DNA from: Eggerthellaceae bacterium | Lineage (GTDB): Bacteria > Actinomycetota > Coriobacteriia > Coriobacteriales > Eggerthellaceae | Direction of reading: 5' to 3' | Length of the DNA: 64,000 bases | Assembly (NCBI GenBank): GCA_910575165.1 | Contig: CAJTDS010000007.1 | Span: 1-64,000, forward strand | Shown: piece by piece, positions 3,420 through 56,300 of the stretch | Position numbering within the stretch: position 1 is the stretch's first letter | Layout: each line of letters begins with the position of its first letter | The notes under the pieces: model-generated | The model's database searches: none | What the model was told of the DNA's origin: nothing | What the model saw: the letters and a program-made list of their open reading frames with translations, nothing else | Position numbers and translations under genes: made by a program

Positions 3420-4604
<1,185 letters not shown>

Positions 4605-4632
4605 CAACCCTTTTGAGGATAGGAGGCCGTCC

Positions 4633-5403
4633 ATGGCGCGCAAACCCTTGATGGCAGGCAACTGGAAGATGAACAACACCATCGGCGAGGCGGTGGTGCT
4701 GGCCCAGGACATCTCGAACAACTTCGAGCGGGATTGGAGCGATTCGGTGGATGTGGTGGTATGCCCGCCCTACGTGGACCTGAAGCCCGTGAAGACGGTG
4801 TTCGACTTCGACAAGACGCCTGTGGCCGTGGCTGCCCAGAACGTGTACTTCCAGAAGAAGGGCGCCTTCACCGGCGAGATATCGGTGGAGATGCTGGCCG
4901 AGATCGGATGTGTGGCGGCCATCGTCGGCCACTCCGAGCGCCGGGAGCTTCTGGGCGAGACCAACGAGGACGTGAACCTGAAGCTCAAGGCGTTGCTGGA
5001 AGGTGGCATGTACGCCATCGTCTGCTGTGGCGAGTCGCTGGCCGTGCGCGACGGGGGCGGTGCGCTCGAGTATGTAACGGCGCAGGTGAAGGCGGCGTTT
5101 GCCGGCGTGGATGGCTTGGACGCGGCCAAGTGCGTGGTGGCCTACGAGCCCATCTGGGCCATCGGCACGGGGCGCACGGCAACCCCGGAGCAGGCCGAGG
5201 AGGTGTGCGCCGCCATCCGCGCGCAGCTGGCGGAGATGTACGGCCGGGACGTCGCCCAGGCCATGCGCATCCTCTACGGCGGCTCCATGAACGAGGGCAA
5301 CGTGGAGATGCTGCTAGCCCAGCCCGACATCGACGGCGGACTGGTGGGAGGGGCGAGCCTTAAGGCCTTGTCCTTCGTCAACCTGGTGAAGGCCTGCCTG
5401 TAG
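4633..5403 (+). CDS. tpiA: Triosephosphate isomerase
   Basis: A 256-residue TIM barrel that interconverts dihydroxyacetone phosphate and glyceraldehyde 3-phosphate. The active-site lysine lies in AGNWKMN at the N-terminus, the electrophilic histidine in GHSERR, the catalytic glutamate and loop 6 in YEPIWAIGTG, and the phosphate-binding YGGS near the end. The start follows AGGAGG with good spacing. It is third in the cluster, 28 bp after pgk. Confidence 0.96.
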   Translation: MARKPLMAGNWKMNNTIGEAVVLAQDISNNFERDWSDSVDVVVCPPYVDLKPVKTVFDFDKTPVAVAAQNVYFQKKGAFTGEISVEMLAEIGCVAAIVGHSERRELLGETNEDVNLKLKALLEGGMYAIVCCGESLAVRDGGGALEYVTAQVKAAFAGVDGLDAAKCVVAYEPIWAIGTGRTATPEQAEEVCAAIRAQLAEMYGRDVAQAMRILYGGSMNEGNVEMLLAQPDIDGGLVGGASLKALSFVNLVKACL

Positions 5404-5493
5404 CCGTTTTGTTCGTATGGATGTGCGGCCCTTCGCGCTTTGCTCGGAGGGCCGCGCTGCAAGAAAGCGTTTCGACCGAGCTAGGAGCATGCC

Positions 5494-7068
5494 ATGTCCG
5501 TTTCCACCGCCGAGAATGCCATCTCGGACGCCGTGCGCACGCCGGCCTGCCTCATCATCATGGACGGCTTCGGCCTTGCCGAGCCCGGAGAGGGCAACGC
5601 CATCTCCCTGGCTCGCACGCCCAACCTCGATAAGCTGTTCGCGGCCTGCAGCCATACCCGGCTGGAGGCTTCGGGGGAGGCCGTGGGGCTTCCGGCTGGC
5701 CAGATGGGCAATTCCGAGGTGGGACACCTCAACATCGGCGCCGGGCGCGTGGTCTATCAGGAGCTCAGCCGCATCAACCGGGCTTGCGCCGACGGGTCGC
5801 TGGCGGCCAACGACGTGCTGCAGCGGGCTTTCGCCGCGGCGAGGGAGGACGGTGCGGCGCTGCATCTGATGGGTCTGCTCTCCGACGGCGGCGTCCACTC
5901 CATGAACACCCATCTCTACGCGCTCCTAGAGGCGGCCAAGGATGCCGGCGTGCCCACGGTGCGCGTGCATGCCTTCCTGGACGGCCGCGACGTGCCGCCT
6001 GCGAGCGGCGCTGACTACCTCGACCAGCTGCAGGAGGTGCTCGACGGCCTGTGCGACGAGGGCTTCGACGCGCGCATCGCCACGGTGTCGGGCCGCTACT
6101 TTGCCATGGATCGCGACAAGCGCTGGGAGCGCGTGCGGCAGGCCTGGGAGGCGCTGGTTCAGGCCGAGCCCCTGCGCCAGGACGACCTGTCCGCCTCCGA
6201 TGCGGTGCGTCGTTCCTACGACGAGGGCGTAACCGACGAATTCGTGGTCCCCTTCGCGCTGGACGGCCGGGGAATCGCCGACGGCGACGCGGTGGTGTTC
6301 TTCAACTTCCGCCCCGACCGTGCCCGAGAGATTACCCGCTCCATCGTGGACGAGGCCTTCGACGGCTTCGAGCGCTCGGTGCGCCCGCAGGTATCCTTCG
6401 TATGCCTGACCGAGTACGATCCGGCCATCGAGGCGCCGGTGGCCTTCCCGAAGGAGTTCCCGGACAACGTGCTTGCCGACGTGCTGGCCGACCGGGGGCT
6501 TCGGCAGTATCACATCGCCGAGACAGAGAAGTACGCCCATGTGACCTTCTTCCTGAACGGCGGCATCGAGGCGCCCAAGGCGGGGGAGGAGCGGTGCCTC
6601 ATCGCCAGCCCCAAGGTGGCCACCTACGACCTGCAGCCCGAGATGAGCGAGCCCGACGTGGCAGACACCCTGGTCAAGGCCATCGACGAGGGGGAGGCGG
6701 ACGTTTACATCGTGAACTTCGCCAACCCCGACATGGTGGGGCATACCGGTGTGATCCCCGCAGCCGTAGCCGCCGTCGAGGCTGTCGACGAAGGGGTGGG
6801 CAAGGTGGTTCGGGCCATAGGGCGCGCCGGCGGCATCGCCTTCGTGACCGCCGACCACGGCAATGCCGACAAGATGCTCGCCGACGACGGAACGCCCCAT
6901 ACCGCCCATACCATGGCGCCCGTTCCCTTCCTGCTGATGGATGCGACAGGCGCGGGGATGCGCCTGTCGGGCGAGACCGGGGCGCTGTGCGACATCGCCC
7001 CGACGCTGCTGGATGCCATGGGCCTTGCTGCGCCCGAGCAGATGACGGGAAAAAGCTTGCTGGCCTAA
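5494..7068 (+). CDS. gpmI: 2,3-bisphosphoglycerate-independent phosphoglycerate mutase
   Basis: A 524-residue metal-dependent (usually Mn2+) mutase of the alkaline phosphatase superfamily, interconverting 3- and 2-phosphoglycerate. The catalytic serine lies in MGNSEVGH after the metal-binding IIMDGFGL, and the C-terminal metal ligands lie in TADHGNAD and HTAHTM. The length is usual for the family. TAGGAG precedes the ATG. It closes the glycolysis cluster and is separated from tpiA by 90 bp containing a GCGGCCCT/AGGGCCGC inverted repeat (5425-5455) with no T-tract. No enolase gene follows. Confidence 0.95.
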   Translation: MSVSTAENAISDAVRTPACLIIMDGFGLAEPGEGNAISLARTPNLDKLFAACSHTRLEASGEAVGLPAGQMGNSEVGHLNIGAGRVVYQELSRINRACADGSLAANDVLQRAFAAAREDGAALHLMGLLSDGGVHSMNTHLYALLEAAKDAGVPTVRVHAFLDGRDVPPASGADYLDQLQEVLDGLCDEGFDARIATVSGRYFAMDRDKRWERVRQAWEALVQAEPLRQDDLSASDAVRRSYDEGVTDEFVVPFALDGRGIADGDAVVFFNFRPDRAREITRSIVDEAFDGFERSVRPQVSFVCLTEYDPAIEAPVAFPKEFPDNVLADVLADRGLRQYHIAETEKYAHVTFFLNGGIEAPKAGEERCLIASPKVATYDLQPEMSEPDVADTLVKAIDEGEADVYIVNFANPDMVGHTGVIPAAVAAVEAVDEGVGKVVRAIGRAGGIAFVTADHGNADKMLADDGTPHTAHTMAPVPFLLMDATGAGMRLSGETGALCDIAPTLLDAMGLAAPEQMTGKSLLA

Positions 7069-7419: not shown

Positions 7420-9117
7420 TTAGGCGGCGATATGCTGGCCAGCGATGTAGCCGTAGGTAAGCGCGGCGCCGTGGCTTGCTCCGGATAGCGAGAACGGATA
7501 GTCGTCCACGAAGCGGCCTCCCTGAGTGTTGCCCACGGCGTACAAGCCGGGAATGGGGCGAAGGTCGTCGCCTAGCACGCGGGCGAATTCGTCTGTCTCG
7601 AGGCCGCCCATCGTTACGAGCAGGCGCATGCAGCTCACGTCGTCCACCGAAGTATGCTTGCTCATGTCGTAGGTGATTGCCCTGAACGGTCCCTCGACGA
7701 TGGGGTGCATTTTCTCGGCGGCTTTGCCGAAATCATCGTCATGGCCTTTCTCGCACAGCTCGTTGTAACGGGCTACCTCGTCGAGAAACGTCTTCGCGTC
7801 TTCGCCCTTGATGTTCAGCTGTGCGGCAAGTTCTTCGAGCGTGTCCGCTTCGGCTGAATAGGTTTCGCCGTCACCGAAGCTGCGTATGTATTCCAGCGTC
7901 ATGTCCAGCTGAGGATAGTAGTCGGCAGCCCTTGCGTCGACAATCTGAAATACCTTCGTGCCTGGTTGCGCGACCATGATTTTTGCGATGTTGGTCATGC
8001 TCAAGTCCTCGTTGCAGAAGCGTCGGCCGTGCTCGTTGACCTCTAGGAACTGATCCGCTCCGAACTGAAGGATGTGCGCCATGACCGCATGGGGCCCGCA
8101 ATCGAGATGGCCGCCGGCGGCTACGCCCATAATCTGCCCGTCACCGGTGCTCGCTGGATTGCCCTTCATGTCGCGTGCCTCGTGGGAGAACAGGTACTTG
8201 TCCCTGTTCTCGAAGATCCAAGGGGCATAGGTCTTGAGCATGTCTTCGTTGAGGCTGTAGTCGCCGGTAGCCAAGATGACACCCTTCGACGCACGATAGC
8301 GCGTGTAGGTATCGTCGGCCAGGTTCTGGCATACGACGCCGGTTACCCGACCGTCCTCTACGTCGAGCTGCACGGCGGGGGAGTCGAACACGGTTAGCGC
8401 ATTGCCGCTGCCTACGGCCTTATCGATATTCGCTTCTAGCAGCGGGCGATGCGTCTCGTTTCCGCCGCCTACGCTAATGCAGCCGGGGAACAGGCGCTCA
8501 TGGTCGATGCCAAACCGATAGGTGTCCTCCGCACCGTCGCCGTACAGGTATATCTGGTTCGGATCTTCAGGGAAGGGGTCTTCGAGACCTACGAGCATGA
8601 GGTCGTCCATTGCCCCCGCATACCATTCGAACGCTTCGCCGCATCGCGCAAGCCACGTATTGATGACGCGGTAGTTGCCGCGATGGGCCATCTGTATCAT
8701 GAGCTCGTTGGCGACTACCGTAGGGTCGACCTCCTGTACGCCTAACTTGCGTGCCAGGTCGCTGTTGAATGCGGCAAACATGCCCGAGCGACAGTTCGGA
8801 ATGCTTGTCTTTTCCACTGCGATGACGTTTGCGCCGCCCTCGGCCGCCGCGCGCATTGCGGCAACGCCGGCAACGCCCAAGCCCACGACCACCACATCGC
8901 ATTCCTTTGTATCGGCGATGGCGTCCTCGGGAATCGTCTCTCGCTCCTTGCCTTGGCTACCGTCCCCCTCGGCGTCAGCTTCCTTGGCGGCCTGGACCGG
9001 AGCGCAGCCTGCCAAGCCTGCCGCAGCTGCGGCTGCACCGGCCAGCGCTGCAGCGCCGAGGAACGAGCGCCTGGTCATTTCGTTCGACGTCGTGGGGGTT
9101 GCAGCTTTGCTTTTCAC
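7420..9117 (-). CDS. Tat-exported lipoprotein FAD-dependent oxidoreductase (fumarate reductase-like)
   Basis: A 565-residue flavoprotein of the fumarate reductase/succinate dehydrogenase flavoprotein superfamily. The Tat motif TRRSFLG is at residues 15-21, followed by an Ala-rich hydrophobic stretch and a lipobox-like LAGC (Cys38), so it is probably lipid-anchored outside the membrane. The FAD dinucleotide motif GLGVAG is near residue 80, and GRRFCNED matches the Arg-bearing GxRFxNE block. The family's HTMGG reads VTMGG here, and the Arg-containing RLGGN block reads SLSGAS, so fumarate is unlikely to be the substrate. There is no haem CxxCH motif. The GTG at 9117 is chosen because AAAGGAGGAG precedes it. 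It is probably controlled by the adjacent LuxR protein. Confidence 0.88.
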   Translation of the reverse strand: MKSKAATPTTSNEMTRRSFLGAAALAGAAAAAAGLAGCAPVQAAKEADAEGDGSQGKERETIPEDAIADTKECDVVVVGLGVAGVAAMRAAAEGGANVIAVEKTSIPNCRSGMFAAFNSDLARKLGVQEVDPTVVANELMIQMAHRGNYRVINTWLARCGEAFEWYAGAMDDLMLVGLEDPFPEDPNQIYLYGDGAEDTYRFGIDHERLFPGCISVGGGNETHRPLLEANIDKAVGSGNALTVFDSPAVQLDVEDGRVTGVVCQNLADDTYTRYRASKGVILATGDYSLNEDMLKTYAPWIFENRDKYLFSHEARDMKGNPASTGDGQIMGVAAGGHLDCGPHAVMAHILQFGADQFLEVNEHGRRFCNEDLSMTNIAKIMVAQPGTKVFQIVDARAADYYPQLDMTLEYIRSFGDGETYSAEADTLEELAAQLNIKGEDAKTFLDEVARYNELCEKGHDDDFGKAAEKMHPIVEGPFRAITYDMSKHTSVDDVSCMRLLVTMGGLETDEFARVLGDDLRPIPGLYAVGNTQGGRFVDDYPFSLSGASHGAALTYGYIAGQHIAA

Positions 9118-10695: not shown

Positions 10696-11027
10696 AACAA
10701 TTCCTTGCTAGCCTTTGACGGAGGGGACGAGGAAAGTATAGCAGCTGTCGGGCTGTACGCGAGGAAGCCGGTAAGGCCTTTTCGCGTCTGCGAGAGGGCA
10801 TTTTAATCGATGGGGCGAACGGCGATCGTCAAGAGGATCCAGCGTTGGTTCGTTGCTTTAGCAACATGGTTGCCGGTCGTATCTGGGGTCGCGGCGCCTG
10901 CGGGACGACCGGGCGCCTGTCGGCGGGGCTTTCCCCTGATGGCGTGAAATTTGCGAGTTTTTCCCTGAGAGATGCGGGGAAGCTGATAGACTTTTGAGGA
11001 ATGCCCGAACGAACAGGAGGCCGATTC
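10696..11027. other. 332-bp divergent intergenic region
   Basis: This separates the minus-strand LuxR-type gene from the cyclophilin gene and must hold both promoters. It contains small inverted repeats such as GCAAC/GTTGC (10861-10873) and GGTCGT/ACGACC (10875-10910). No gene, RNA or confident promoter hexamer pair was recognised. Confidence 0.4.
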
Positions 11028-51063: not shown

Positions 51064-52293
51064 ATGACGAAGCTTGTAGAGCGCGAGGACGGTCGCCCTA
51101 CCGTGGTGCTGGGCGTCACGGGATGCATCGCTGCCTACAAGGCATGCGAGCTCGTGCGGCTGCTGCAGAAGGCCGACGTGCGCGTGAAGGTGGTCATGAC
51201 CGAGCATGCGACGCACTTCGTCGACCCTCTGACCTTCCGTGCGCTGACCCACGAGGAGGTAGCCGTGGGGCTGTTCGACGATCCGTGGGACCCCATCCAT
51301 CATATCTCGCTGGCCCAGGAAGCCGACGTGTTCTGCATCGCCCCGTGTACCGGCAACGTGCTGGCGAAGCTGGCCTGCGGTATCGCCGACGACCTGCTGA
51401 CGACCGCGGCCTTGGCGGTGACGTCGCCTCTGGTGATCGCCCCGGCTATGAACGTCCATATGTACGAGCATCCGGCCACCCAGGGCAATCTCGATGTGCT
51501 CGCGGCCCGCGGAGCTTGCATCGTGTCGGCCGACGAGGGGTATCTGGCCTGCGGCGATGTGGGCCGCGGCCGCTTGGCCGAACCTGCCGTCATCGTGGAA
51601 GCGGTGCTCGGGGCCTTGCGCGCCCGCGACGCGCGCCCGCGCGATCTGGAGGGCGTCCGGGTGCTGGTGACGGCGGGGCCTACGGTGGAGCCCATCGACC
51701 CGGTACGCTTCGTGTCGAACCATTCCTCCGGCAAGATGGGCTACGCCCTGGCCCGGGCAGCGCAGCAGCGGGGCGCTGCGGTGACGCTGGTGAGCGGCCC
51801 TGTGGCGCTTGAGCGCCCCCAGGGTGTCTCGTTTCGGGGCGTGGGCAGCGCGTGCGACATGCTCGGCGCCTGCGAGGAGCTGTTCCCCGCAGCCGATATA
51901 GCCGTGTTCGCGGCGGCGGTGGCAGATTACCGTCCCGAGCACGCTGCGCCCCGGAAGCTGAAGAAGGGCCGTGCCGACGACGACCTGGAATGCATCCGGC
52001 TGGTTCCCAACCCCGACATCCTCGCCACCATGGCCGCCTGCAAATCCTCGGGGCAGACGGTAATCGGCTTCGCAGCCGAGACCGAGGACGTAGTGCCCAA
52101 TGCCCGCGAGAAGCTGGCTCGCAAAGGGGCGGATATGATCGTGGCGAACCAGGTGGGGGAGGGGCTTGTCTTCGGTGCCGATACGGACAAAGCGTACCTG
52201 GTGACCTCCTCTTCGGTGGAGGAGCTGCCCGAGATGGCTAAGGACGACCTTGCCCATGCCATCCTGGACGCGTCGGCTGCCCTGCGCGCCTAG
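51064..52293 (+). CDS. coaBC: Phosphopantothenoylcysteine decarboxylase / phosphopantothenate-cysteine ligase
   Basis: A 409-residue bifunctional coenzyme A enzyme. The N-terminal CoaC flavodoxin-like half has the catalytic His in DPIHHISLA, APAMN and the ACGDVGRGRL loop. The CoaB half has TAGPTVEPIDPVRF, NHSSGKMG and NPDIL. The start follows GAAAGGGG with usual spacing. The stop codon overlaps the stop of the convergent LuxR-type gene in the palindrome CTAG (52290-52293). Confidence 0.95.
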   Translation: MTKLVEREDGRPTVVLGVTGCIAAYKACELVRLLQKADVRVKVVMTEHATHFVDPLTFRALTHEEVAVGLFDDPWDPIHHISLAQEADVFCIAPCTGNVLAKLACGIADDLLTTAALAVTSPLVIAPAMNVHMYEHPATQGNLDVLAARGACIVSADEGYLACGDVGRGRLAEPAVIVEAVLGALRARDARPRDLEGVRVLVTAGPTVEPIDPVRFVSNHSSGKMGYALARAAQQRGAAVTLVSGPVALERPQGVSFRGVGSACDMLGACEELFPAADIAVFAAAVADYRPEHAAPRKLKKGRADDDLECIRLVPNPDILATMAACKSSGQTVIGFAAETEDVVPNAREKLARKGADMIVANQVGEGLVFGADTDKAYLVTSSSVEELPEMAKDDLAHAILDASAALRA

Positions 52294-53834
52294 TCCTTGG
52301 CGCTTCTTCCCGCCTTCCTGTTCTCCGTGCTGCGGGATTCCAACAAGTCGATCAGCTCGCGCTTCTTGTGCACGCCCAGCTTGCGGTAGATGCTCTTCGA
52401 ATGGGAGCGCACCGTGTCCAGCGAGATGCACAGCGTTTCCGCGATGTGCGGCAGCGTGTAGCCTTTGGTCATGAGCGCAGCCACCTCCTCCTCGCGCTGT
52501 GTGAGGTGGAAGCGGGTTGCGAGTACGCACAGAGTCGCTTCGATGCTCGCCGGCTCGGCACGGGGGGCATCAGGCGGCCGGGGCGCATCCTGCTCGCCGG
52601 ATGCGCCGCTTCGGCGGGACTGACGAAGCGCCACGGCTATGGCTGCGATTACCAAGGTGAACGTGACCGCAGTGACGGCGAACACCGCAAGCGAGCTCGG
52701 CTGCAGGGTGGGGTCCCGGGGTAGCAGCAGTCCGACTCCGGCAGTGATCGCCACGGGTACCGAGAGCAGTCCCAGGGTGCAGCCGGCGAAGTAGGGAAGC
52801 GCCGGTATGCCCTCGTCGTAGGCGCTTTCCGCGATGACGATCCAGCAGAATAGCATGAAGCACTCCCTGGTGGCTCGCAGGAAGCTTGCGGCGAAAACCG
52901 GATCGTCGTGACGAAACGCGATGAAGCACAAAAGCCCGCTGAATATGACGAGCATGAAGAAGGGCCATAGGTCGCGCACGCTTCGGCGCAGGGCGAAGAT
53001 CCACAGGCAGCAGAACGCGAACACTACGATGAGCAGCACGGGCCAGTAGAGCTTGTAGGAGGAGCTGAGCAAGCGTTCGGTGGTGGGGACGAGCACCTGG
53101 GTGATGAAGCTTGCCAGCGTGCACAGACCGAGCAGGAAGATCATGCTCCAGGGGATGCGCTGGCGAACACCCGCGCCAGGCTTGCTTGCGGGCTTGCGCG
53201 GCGAACCCTCGCGATCGGTTTCCATAGCCATGAGGTAGCAGGCGTAGGTGAGCGGGTAGGATAGCAGGGATGCCACGGCTATGGCCTGGGCAGGCATGAA
53301 TGAGAACATCCAGGTTGCGATGCCGTAGAGAGCGAAGGCCAGCGACAGCCCGAAGCAGGAGCGAACCGGATCGATACTGCAGAAGTGCACGCCTAGCGCC
53401 ACGACGCAGAAGCCGCTGGCGGCTCCGTGGATTACGCTGCCGATGAACACGAGCGGCGGCAGCGACGAGATGATGAGGGCCGTGGCAACTGTTCCGCCGG
53501 CGGCTGCCACTCCGATCAAGCGCACAAATGCGTGCTCCGAGTAGTCGATTTTCCGGTCGGCCGCTATGATGGCTGCCATGACCAACGCCTGCACGACGTA
53601 GGCGGTAAACGGTATGGCGCCGTCGGCAAGCCCCGGACCGTTGCGGAACATGGTCCAGGCACCTATACGGAACGAGGCGAGCGCGAAGGCCGCCAGGAAG
53701 GGCAACGAGGCTACCTTGGCGAGGGCTCCTATGGGTTTTCTCTCCGAAGCTACCAGGGGCATGGCTGCGTTTCCTACTTCCTGCTCTGTCGCTGCTTTGC
53801 ACGGGCGGTCCACGGCGCTCGGCGTGCCCTCCAT
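52290..53834 (-). CDS. Membrane-bound LuxR-type transcriptional regulator
   Basis: A 514-residue protein with about twelve hydrophobic segments and a C-terminal LuxR helix-turn-helix (FHLTQREEEVAALMTKGYT, then CISLDTVRSHSKSIYRKLGV). The N-terminal ~35 residues before the first membrane helix are hydrophilic. The ATG at 53834 has AGGGA close by; an alternative ATG at 53762, with AGGAAG/TAGGAA upstream, would shorten it by 24 residues. It is divergent from the Tat-exported reductase gene, with direct repeats between them, which suggests that it controls that gene. Confidence 0.86.
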   Translation of the reverse strand: MEGTPSAVDRPCKAATEQEVGNAAMPLVASERKPIGALAKVASLPFLAAFALASFRIGAWTMFRNGPGLADGAIPFTAYVVQALVMAAIIAADRKIDYSEHAFVRLIGVAAAGGTVATALIISSLPPLVFIGSVIHGAASGFCVVALGVHFCSIDPVRSCFGLSLAFALYGIATWMFSFMPAQAIAVASLLSYPLTYACYLMAMETDREGSPRKPASKPGAGVRQRIPWSMIFLLGLCTLASFITQVLVPTTERLLSSSYKLYWPVLLIVVFAFCCLWIFALRRSVRDLWPFFMLVIFSGLLCFIAFRHDDPVFAASFLRATRECFMLFCWIVIAESAYDEGIPALPYFAGCTLGLLSVPVAITAGVGLLLPRDPTLQPSSLAVFAVTAVTFTLVIAAIAVALRQSRRSGASGEQDAPRPPDAPRAEPASIEATLCVLATRFHLTQREEEVAALMTKGYTLPHIAETLCISLDTVRSHSKSIYRKLGVHKKRELIDLLESRSTENRKAGRSAKD

Positions 53835-53866
53835 TGAATCCCTGCGCTGGTTTGCCCGCATCGCAT

Positions 53867-53918
53867 CAATGATGTGATTCGCTCCGTCCCGCCCTCGTTT
53901 TCCCCGCAATGATGTGAT
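53867..53918. promoter_or_regulatory. Direct repeats CAATGATGTGAT in the divergent region
   Basis: CAATGATGTGAT occurs at 53867-53878 and again at 53907-53918, exactly 40 bp apart (close to four helical turns). They lie between the LuxR-type gene and the exported reductase and are good candidates for tandem binding sites of that regulator. Confidence 0.5.
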
Positions 53919-54014
53919 GCGGGGGCAACGCATCTCCCCATACCATAGCAGAAGCCGCCCACGGGAAGGGGCGGGTTGCCAACAAGATGCCTTCGGGCAG
54001 AGGAGGGGAGAGCT

Positions 54015-56300
54015 ATGGAGCTATCGCGTCGTGATTTTCTCGGAGCCGCGGCGTTTACCGCCGCCGGCTTCGGATCGCTGGCCGTGGCTGGCGGACTGGC
54101 GGGCTGCGCCGCGCCCAAGCAGGATGCGCCCAAGCAGGATGCGCCGAAAGGAGACGAGCCTAAGGCGGCCGACGACGGCGTCGAGGCGGGTGCTGCCGAG
54201 CCGGCGCCGGCGGCGGGGGAGGGGCTGAACCCCCAGAGCGACTACACCGCCTGCACCACCGACTTCAAGCCGCTGTTCGAGCCGCTGACCATGGGCGGCG
54301 TGACGCTGAAGAACCGCATCGTGAAGAGCCCTGCCGGATCCGACACCTGGGCGCCCGAAGGGGATGCGCTCAACGACAACTTCCTGGACTACTACGAGAA
54401 CTTCGCCAAGGGCGGCGCGTCGTTGGTGTTCGTGGAGAGCTCCATCGGCAAGCTCATGGGATTCAAGCCCCTGGAGCAGACCGCTTCCGGCTGGCTCGTG
54501 TCCGACATGACGAAGATTCCCGACCTCATGGCGCCTGTGTGCGAGCGCATCCACAAGCACGATTCGCTGGCGGGCTTCCAGCTGGGCATGGGCATGCTCA
54601 ACGAGGAGACCACGGTCATCACCGACATGACGCCCGAGAACATCCAGTGGCTCAAGGATACCATCGTGGAGCTGGCCGTGCAGCTGAAGGCCGCCGGCTT
54701 CGACGTGATGGAGCTGCACTGCGCCGCCACCCAGATCCTGAAGTACTTCATGATGGCGCGCGTCAACAAGCGCGAGGACGAGTACGGTGCGCAGAACCTG
54801 GAGAACCGAACCCGCTTCCTTTGCGAGGTCATCGCGGGCATCAAGGAGGCCTGCGGCCAGGACTACCCGGTGCAGGTGCTCATTGACGCGGTGGAGGAGA
54901 ACGACGCCGCCCTGGGCAACAACGACGGGTTCCTCACCCTGGAGGAGTCCGTCGCCAACGCCCAGATGCTGGAGAAGGCCGGCGCCGACTCCTTCTACCT
55001 GCGCGTGTCGGTCCCCGGACGCCACATCGCCCAGTTCGCGCCCGACCTTATGTTCTCGGGCTATCGGTCCGAGGGCATGACCGGCTTCGGCACCCGGGCC
55101 GACTTCTCCCAGCATTTCGGCGGTATCGTCGACGGCGAGCACTCCGGTGCGGGCATGCTCATCTCGGCATGCGAGGCCTACAAGAAGGGCTTGTCGAAGG
55201 CGAGCGTGTCGGCGGCCGGCTACATGGACCCGCGTACCGCCCCCGACCTCATCGTGGGCGCTGTGGCCGACGGCAAGGTGGACTACCTCATGATCACGCG
55301 CCCGCTGACCGTGGACCCGGAGATGCCCAACAAGCTGGCTGCCGGCAAGCGTGACGAGATCGCCCCGTGCTGCCGGTGCCTGCACTGCCACTCCAAGGGC
55401 GGTCCGGCCGAGTACGCCAACGACGGCACCGAGTACTGCCGCGTGAACGCCGTCACCCAGCGCGCCTACACCGAGGATATCCCGGAAGGCTACGAGCTGC
55501 TCCCCGCCGAGACCAAGAAGAAGGTCATGGTGGTGGGCGGCGGTCCTGCCGGCATGGAGGCGGCCCGCATCGCAGCCCTGCGCGGCCACGATGTCACCCT
55601 CTACGAGAAGAGCTCGTCTTTGGGCGGCCTGGTCAACACCGCCCATGCGTTCAAGGGCGACCACGAGCGCTTGGGAGATCTGGTGGACTACCTGGCGCAT
55701 CAGCAGGACGTGTGCGGGGTTTCGGTGGTGACCGGCACCGAGGTGACCGCCGAGACCGTGAAGACCGAATCGCCCGACGTGGTGCTGGTGGCCACGGGAG
55801 GCAAACGCGAGACGAAGCTTTCGGGCGCGGGCCCGGTGAAGGTGGCCGGTATCGCCGACGTGGCCGGCGCCGACCTGGGCCAGCGCGTGGTCATCTGCGG
55901 CGCCGGGCTGCAGGCGGTGGACATCGCGCTGTACCTCTTGGCCCAGGGCAAGAAGGTGCAGCTGGTGCACGACCAGCCCAAGGAGCTCATCGACAAGGAG
56001 CAGTCCATGTGGGTGCGCGCCTTCGTCATCCCGCACCTGTACGCCCAAGGCGTCAAGATCTGGAACAACGCCCAGGTAGGCAAGGTGACCGACGAGGGGC
56101 TTTCCATCACCATCGCCACCGGCGAGCAGAAGGTGCTCGCCTGCGACACCGTGCTGGAATGCTACGACATGGTGCCGAACACCGAGCTGGCCGATGCCAT
56201 CGGCTCTGCGGCCGAGGTGAAGTGCATCGGCGACTGCGAGGCCCCCTGCGACATCGCCATGGCCATCAAGGCCGGCCACTTGGCGGCGAGGGCCATCTAG
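54015..56300 (+). CDS. Tat-exported lipoprotein old-yellow-enzyme-type reductase
   Basis: A 761-residue protein. Tat motif SRRDFLG at residues 4-10 and a lipobox-like LAGC (Cys31) suggest export and lipid anchoring. A linker with repeated KQDAP units follows. Residues ~85-440 are an FMN TIM barrel (PLTMGGVTLKNRIVKSP, ELHCAATQILKYFM, NKREDEYGAQNLENRTRF). Cysteines 452/453, 455, 458 and 475 probably bind a 4Fe-4S cluster. Residues ~502-761 are an FAD/NAD(P)H-type domain (VMVVGGGPAGMEAARIA). This is the 2,4-dienoyl-CoA reductase/BaiCD layout, but exported. The ATG at 54015 follows AGGAGGGGAG. The substrate is unknown. Confidence 0.88.
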   Translation: MELSRRDFLGAAAFTAAGFGSLAVAGGLAGCAAPKQDAPKQDAPKGDEPKAADDGVEAGAAEPAPAAGEGLNPQSDYTACTTDFKPLFEPLTMGGVTLKNRIVKSPAGSDTWAPEGDALNDNFLDYYENFAKGGASLVFVESSIGKLMGFKPLEQTASGWLVSDMTKIPDLMAPVCERIHKHDSLAGFQLGMGMLNEETTVITDMTPENIQWLKDTIVELAVQLKAAGFDVMELHCAATQILKYFMMARVNKREDEYGAQNLENRTRFLCEVIAGIKEACGQDYPVQVLIDAVEENDAALGNNDGFLTLEESVANAQMLEKAGADSFYLRVSVPGRHIAQFAPDLMFSGYRSEGMTGFGTRADFSQHFGGIVDGEHSGAGMLISACEAYKKGLSKASVSAAGYMDPRTAPDLIVGAVADGKVDYLMITRPLTVDPEMPNKLAAGKRDEIAPCCRCLHCHSKGGPAEYANDGTEYCRVNAVTQRAYTEDIPEGYELLPAETKKKVMVVGGGPAGMEAARIAALRGHDVTLYEKSSSLGGLVNTAHAFKGDHERLGDLVDYLAHQQDVCGVSVVTGTEVTAETVKTESPDVVLVATGGKRETKLSGAGPVKVAGIADVAGADLGQRVVICGAGLQAVDIALYLLAQGKKVQLVHDQPKELIDKEQSMWVRAFVIPHLYAQGVKIWNNAQVGKVTDEGLSITIATGEQKVLACDTVLECYDMVPNTELADAIGSAAEVKCIGDCEAPCDIAMAIKAGHLAARAI
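54111..54140 (+). repeat. 15-bp tandem repeat in the lipoprotein linker
   Basis: GCGCCCAAGCAGGAT occurs twice in tandem (54111-54125, 54126-54140), with a diverged third unit at 54141-54155. It encodes the APKQD repeat just after the lipid-anchoring cysteine and could change length by slippage without a frameshift. Confidence 0.6.

Follow-up and report, generated by a model that had tools for sequence, protein, structure and literature searches.

The window that we analysed, a 64,000-nucleotide stretch of DNA, encodes an iron–sulphur flavoenzyme of the old yellow enzyme (OYE) type that probably acts as a respiratory reductase outside the cytoplasm: exported by the twin-arginine translocation (Tat) pathway, anchored to the membrane, induced by its substrate and supplied with electrons by the respiratory chain instead of NAD(P)H. 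We favour an extracytosolic respiratory reductase because the export signal, the cofactor set, the lost NAD fingerprint, the FMN_bind-type fusions and the substrate-type regulators point the same way when taken together. The signal, the layout, the cofactor motifs, the lost fingerprint, a moved arginine, the fusions in kin and the adjacency of regulators are all legible in the sequences themselves.

The gene and the main features of its product are as follows.

54015–56300, + strand: predicted exported iron–sulphur flavoenzyme of OYE/2,4-dienoyl-CoA reductase layout, 761 aa (open reading frame, Pfam, predicted structure)
54024–54041, + strand: Tat motif SRRDFL, residues 4–9 (sequence, clade count)
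54096–54107, + strand: lipobox LAGC, residues 28–31, with Cys31 expected to be lipidated (sequence, clade count)
54108–54248, + strand: low-complexity linker, pLDDT mostly low (predicted structure)
54249–55358, + strand: FMN-binding TIM barrel, Oxidored_FMN (Pfam, predicted structure)
55368–55439, + strand: four-Cys [4Fe-4S] site, C452-x2-C455-x2-C458-x16-C475 (alignment)
55536–55553, + strand: GGGPAG, the intact motif of the FAD (ADP-binding) Rossmann fold (Pfam, alignment)

The frame runs without interruption from an ATG at 54015 to a stop ending at 56300, and directly 5′ of the ATG lies a purine-rich, ribosome-site-like stretch. The first-pass annotation had described a protein of 2,4-dienoyl-CoA reductase layout carrying a Tat motif and a lipobox, and all of this is borne out. 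SRRDFL is followed at a distance of 19 residues by LAGC, the arrangement of a Tat lipoprotein, and the motif argues for export. Behind the signal, an FMN TIM barrel, a four-Cys site and an FAD-type Rossmann domain follow one another in the order seen in OYE-like iron–sulphur flavoenzymes. Two Pfam matches exceed the cut-off, Oxidored_FMN at 95.8 bits and Pyr_redox_2 at 83.6 bits. The predicted structure, built from 33 relatives, has a mean pLDDT of 85.8 and a pTM of 0.85, residues 1–68 being mostly disordered. Its four best fold matches, each across ~600 residues, are practically tied (Z 34–36): 2-naphthoyl-CoA reductase (36.2), TMADH (36.1), histamine dehydrogenase (35.1) and E. coli 2,4-dienoyl-CoA reductase (34.7). 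The first of these (NCR, 6qkg, a type III aryl-CoA reductase) is the best solved match by both sequence and fold, and the last (FadH, 1ps9) has the whole layout in common with the window protein over 599 residues.

By searching 61 genomes (the window's own and 60 relatives) we found 33 matches in 12 genomes that are set apart at E ≤ 4e-126, the next match lying at 3e-55. The window genome holds four full-length copies, together with two cytoplasmic-type relatives and one TatC gene. Although members are only 36–58% identical to the window protein, 28 carry a strict Tat motif (RRxF[LIVMFA]), four a relaxed one and one none, and 20 of the 33 have a lipobox; on these counts the Tat signal is not a chance match. 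The sole member without the twin-arginine motif, L049, starts at a contig edge. Among the matches listed, 86 non-clade homologous ORFs on the scanned loci gave no convincing N-terminal Tat signal; three of them have stray Tat-motif matches, located either internally or in a long frame preceding the protein. In a named genome collection, at least 80 loci appear among the matches listed, of which five belong to the exported clade, all five with a Tat motif: four are from Coriobacteriales MAGs and one is from a MAG labelled Tissierellia, of 36.5% GC. This last member (L071, DURT01000053.1) lies outside the Coriobacteriales and carries both Tat motif and lipobox; its presence in a low-GC genome may reflect horizontal transfer or a wider range. 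Across the genomes searched, the exported clade, as delimited by sequence, is thus known from Coriobacteriales and one low-GC MAG. Within 138 genomes of the window's family, manual reading gave 70 clade-level matches in 38 genomes, after 12 of the 82 rows listed had been set aside as lower-scoring and lacking the signal region.

Residues were compared on a MAFFT alignment in which 36 rows come from the clade and 107 from non-exported relatives, the latter picked by similarity among the matches listed; L068 and L069 were left out of the clade rows because they share their contigs with L041 and L044. A tree was built from all 36 clade rows together with 36 of the 107 others, and in it the exported clade forms one side of a branch with an SH-aLRT of 100 and a length of 0.89, and the nearest kin of the window protein are L052, L053, L054 and L032. 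All the clade signatures trace to this one branch, and so they amount statistically to about one evolutionary event.

The clade departs from enzymes that use NAD(P)H in the nucleotide pocket of the C-terminal domain. Two positions are needed here.

55899–55916, + strand: GAGLQA, the second Rossmann motif, at the place of GxGxxG in NAD(P)H-type relatives (alignment)
55662–55664, + strand: His550 (alignment, mapped to the NCR residues given in PMC6502838)

It had been claimed that the protein keeps its NAD(P)H-type domain. This is true of the fold only, because the pocket is remodelled: strict GxGxxG occurs in 0/36 exported rows against 71/107 non-exported ones, and an E/D after β-2 in 0/36 against 84/107. 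In NAD-binding folds that acidic residue holds the ribose. The third glycine of the motif is Ala in every exported row and the second is Asn in 24 of the 36, while the FAD motif is retained in all 36. The window copy itself retains two of the three glycines and is one of seven clade rows that still fit GxGxx[GA]. Since GxGxxA also suits some folds that bind NADP(H), the pocket argument draws on the clade more than on the window copy.

Among solved relatives, the second Rossmann fingerprint tracks NAD(P)H use: FadH, an NADPH enzyme, keeps GCGGIG, whereas NCR (GGNEIS) and the histamine dehydrogenases (DDDHYY) do not keep the motif. The portion of PMC6502838 consulted describes NCR as using no NAD(P)H and lacking an NADPH site, and TMADH and histamine dehydrogenase as binding ADP and using ETF. 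NCR resembles the window protein in its FMN, [4Fe-4S] and FAD. The fingerprint is degraded across the clade, but the window copy keeps part of it and may or may not have lost an NADPH site. In detail the two pockets diverge. Asn540, which in NCR lines the proposed donor hollow (PMC6502838, in part), aligns with Asn in 24/36 exported rows but with Gly in the window protein; Gln545 becomes Asp636; and Trp459, whose bulk closes off the NADPH site, becomes Leu553, in a column with Leu in 30, Ile in five and Phe in one of the 36 rows. His550 is His in 36/36 clade rows and a gap in most others and, judging from NCR, would lie near the FAD isoalloxazine. NCR also differs in acting on a CoA ester, and the consulted part of PMC6502838 describes no export signal for it.

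On the FMN side, a further clade-wide change concerns the canonical arginine.

54879–54881, + strand: Leu289 on strand 5, at the canonical Arg/Lys place of non-exported relatives (alignment)
55002–55004, + strand: Arg330 on strand 6, the relocated arginine (alignment)

Column 289 is Leu in 36/36 exported rows and Arg or Lys in 95/107 non-exported ones; column 330 is Arg in 36/36 and 9/107, respectively. The two arginines exclude each other among the non-exported rows, 88 having R289 without R330, nine R330 without R289, ten neither and none both. Read from the alignment, the exported clade has its canonical FMN arginine on strand 6 instead of strand 5. The strand-5 residue corresponds, by HMMER alignment, to R214 of FadH, which presumably contacts FMN. 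The nine non-exported rows with a strand-6 Arg and no Tat signal (L072, L073, L075, L076, L077, L078, L081, L082 and L084) are OYE-like proteins from Deltaproteobacteria, Acidobacteria, Actinobacteria, Chloroflexi and others. Since this deeper branch is already swapped, export probably came after the arginine swap. The classical OYE His/His/Tyr set is likewise gone from the exported clade: His at column 238 is found in 0/36 exported against 75/107 non-exported rows, Tyr at column 240 (the active-site Tyr, which we take to be Tyr166 in FadH) in 0/36 against 65/107, and His at column 235 in 4/36, the window included, against 86/107. The stretch after residue 337 measures 45–47 residues and is conserved in the clade, compared with 15–42 residues in others. 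FadH has three features that the exported clade lacks: GCGGIG, an Arg on strand 5 and the Tyr of the active site. The clade also differs in carrying an export signal. In the window protein itself GAGLQA stands in place of GxGxxG and the active-site Tyr is absent.

The iron–sulphur spacing had also been thought unusual, which holds for the last gap but not for the start of the motif. All four cluster Cys are retained in 36/36 exported rows, and the last spacer, most often x11 in non-exported relatives, is x13 in 25 of the 36 and x16 in the window protein; non-exported relatives, too, most often begin the motif with C-x2-C-x2-C (at least 67/107).

The suggestion that the C-terminal domain takes electrons from a carrier other than NAD(P)H gains weight from three fusions to an FMN_bind domain and from the disappearance of the NAD fingerprint throughout the clade, and on these grounds we infer such a carrier for the window enzyme. 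In the three fused proteins, the region matching the window linker is an extra N-terminal FMN_bind-like domain with a flavinylation-type motif: VSGAT in L032, a paralogue from the window's own genome, VTGAT in L149 and AGAS in L041. Against a Pfam FMN_bind cut-off of 22 bits, L149 scores 23.1, L041 20.6 and L032 19.4, the same L032 region giving 23.3 bits in the whole-genome search. L032 and L041 belong to different supported subclades of the tree. FMN_bind domains link extracytosolic reductases to the electron-transport chain according to the flavinylation survey PMC8238504, whose main text contains no match for ‘old yellow’. Pfam found no FMN_bind domain with an [ST]GA[ST] motif in the window protein, so that its donor must be separate. 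The window genome has one ApbE and 17 FMN_bind matches, and 47 of 70 rows for FAD_binding_2 (fumarate-reductase-type) stand at E ≤ 5e-24. Two further loci bring such genes together. On G000:C2 (L031), a small FMN_bind protein (209008–209232) and then an FAD_binding_2 reductase (209576–210787) lie ~3–4 kb upstream of a second exported OYE. On G000:C14, 19680–25332 (L147), the genome's only ApbE gene has two such genes at a distance of ~2 kb, one for a Tat fumarate-reductase-like protein and one for a small FMN_bind protein resembling a lipoprotein.

No electron-transfer gene was recognised adjoining the window gene. NapC/NirT was rejected as donor, the window genome having no match above the cut-off, and the only NapH-like candidate there is one Fer4_5 protein away from the locus. 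A cytochrome partnership was rejected as a clade trait because, across 33 loci, a multiheme neighbour (an ORF with at least three heme motifs) is seen at L042 alone; there an NrfA-like cytochrome c552 (4475–5941, − strand) adjoins the exported OYE on the opposite strand. Nor did a recurrent downstream operon partner stand out at the 33 loci, a weak negative because greedy gene calling is noisy in GC-rich DNA and miscalled even the window's own LuxR.

What does recur is a regulator, in the window the following one.

52290–53933, − strand: membrane-spanning LuxR-type regulator, divergent from the window gene (C-terminal GerE helix-turn-helix; 10 hydrophobic segments)

GerE scores 49.7 bits in this product, and the 10 segments, obtained by a simple hydropathy count, agree with a TM-LuxR, in which a C-terminal GerE follows 10–12 transmembrane helices. 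A LuxR homologue lies within 500 bp of the clade gene at 18 of the 33 loci. At a further six, the upstream neighbours (about 260–430 aa) are related to one another and are LysR in 3/3 of those scanned; most clade genes thus adjoin a transmembrane LuxR or a LysR-like regulator. The consulted part of PMC9734109 reports that 12-TM LuxRs activate catechol dehydroxylases in response to the substrates of these enzymes, with three such regulators demonstrated, and that E. lenta has 50 TM-LuxRs near flavin enzymes. Elsewhere in the window, at 7516–8898 on the − strand, an FAD_binding_2 fumarate-reductase-type flavoprotein has a TM-LuxR homologue close by, ending near 10707, forming a second reductase–regulator pair.

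The donor, the direction of the reaction, the hydride chemistry, the inducer and the substrate of the window enzyme are what we infer from these comparisons, along the following lines. The protein would fold inside the cell with FMN, [4Fe-4S] and FAD, be exported folded by Tat and be anchored as a lipoprotein on the external side of the membrane. A membrane chain linked to quinones would supply the electrons by way of a donor whose gene lies elsewhere. They would arrive at the FAD face that serves as NAD(P)H site in cytoplasmic relatives and go on via FAD and [4Fe-4S] to FMN, which would deliver hydride to a small unsaturated organic acceptor. The dietary, drug or bile compound proposed in the first-pass annotation would be one candidate. 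In the three fused relatives the donor step may be built in as the N-terminal FMN_bind domain. The divergent membrane LuxR would probably sense the substrate and turn the gene on.

Several other readings must be weighed against this one. An ordinary NAD(P)H-dependent FadH-type enzyme is rejected for the clade, where the NAD fingerprint is lost, though low odds are kept for the window copy. That the window N-terminus is no working signal, leaving a common cytoplasmic NAD(P)H-dependent ene-reductase, is very unlikely: two of the three NAD-motif glycines are present in this copy, and related gut iron–sulphur flavoenzymes do have FAD/NAD(P)-binding domains (PMC11574389, in part), but the twin-arginine motif persists in 32/33 members despite their divergence, with a lipobox in 20/33 and TatC present, and the fingerprint is lost across the exported clade. 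An exported relative of TMADH and histamine dehydrogenase would oxidise a small molecule outside and pass electrons via [4Fe-4S] to a membrane acceptor. These dehydrogenases share the layout, are tied with the reductases in fold and do not use NAD(P)H (PMC6502838, in part), and the histamine dehydrogenases have, like the clade, lost the glycine fingerprint. At the covalent-FMN Cys, however, histamine dehydrogenase reads PHC and the window protein PAG (Gly108), and column 108 is Cys in 0/36 clade rows. In TMADH such a Cys carries the FMN covalently (6-S-cysteinyl FMN). A TMADH-type identity was rejected on the lack of this residue, and the window protein further differs in its export signal and active site. 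Its reductase-rich genome and TM-LuxR neighbour favour reduction over oxidation. We regard an exported dehydrogenase as improbable.

A reductase at the same place, drawing on the same membrane donors, might serve detoxification or envelope redox upkeep instead of respiration. Nothing recognised at the locus is tied to energy conservation, the gene standing alone with its own regulator, as such a role would allow; against it, the host group is known for respiring organic acceptors (PMC11887054 and PMC11574389, each in part), a point about the group and not about the window enzyme itself. We give this role only a small chance and retain a respiratory reductase as the preferred reading.

The window protein also stands apart from named OYE-type families. 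BaiCD, BilR and mycofactocin OYE (NCBIfam) have the same domain order and match 33/33 clade members at E ≤ 1e-20, but the window protein scores 139–268 bits against cut-offs of 628–825. E. lenta Ber or Cber might belong to the exported clade; Cber is described as flavin-dependent (PMC11887054, in part). The PF00890 extracytosolic reductases (UrdA, FrdA, Cgr2 type) would be alike in function: they too are flavin reductases that leave the cytoplasm, and many have an FMN_bind domain or a TM-LuxR neighbour (PMC8238504 and PMC9734109, in part). Their fold and ancestry are different, however, the FAD motif alone being shared: FAD_binding_2 matches the window protein at residues 504–544 only (20.5 bits), with no match to a catalytic domain.

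Our literature search, in which most subscription journals lay outside coverage, found no published description of a Tat-exported iron–sulphur OYE family. What is new at the sequence level is a known layout, predicted to have moved outside the cell, with its nicotinamide side rebuilt. As a scenario for its origin, to which we give slightly less than an even chance, the iron–sulphur OYE chassis may have given Coriobacteria a flavin respiratory reductase outside the cytosol that is of a second kind and arose independently: the arginine swap would have come first, in an older cytoplasmic branch, then export of one lineage and loss of the nicotinamide pocket, that face becoming a docking site for membrane carriers (sometimes a fused covalent FMN domain), followed by many substrate-specific, regulator-paired copies. 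Gut Coriobacteria reduce organic compounds, including drugs and polyphenols, with enzymes of the molybdenum and fumarate-reductase types, and export many of these. The exported OYE clade would be a third enzyme chassis beside these two, would explain how a dienoyl-CoA-reductase layout can function in a place without NAD(P)H, and would supply a list of genes, many with an adjoining sensor, for substrate discovery.
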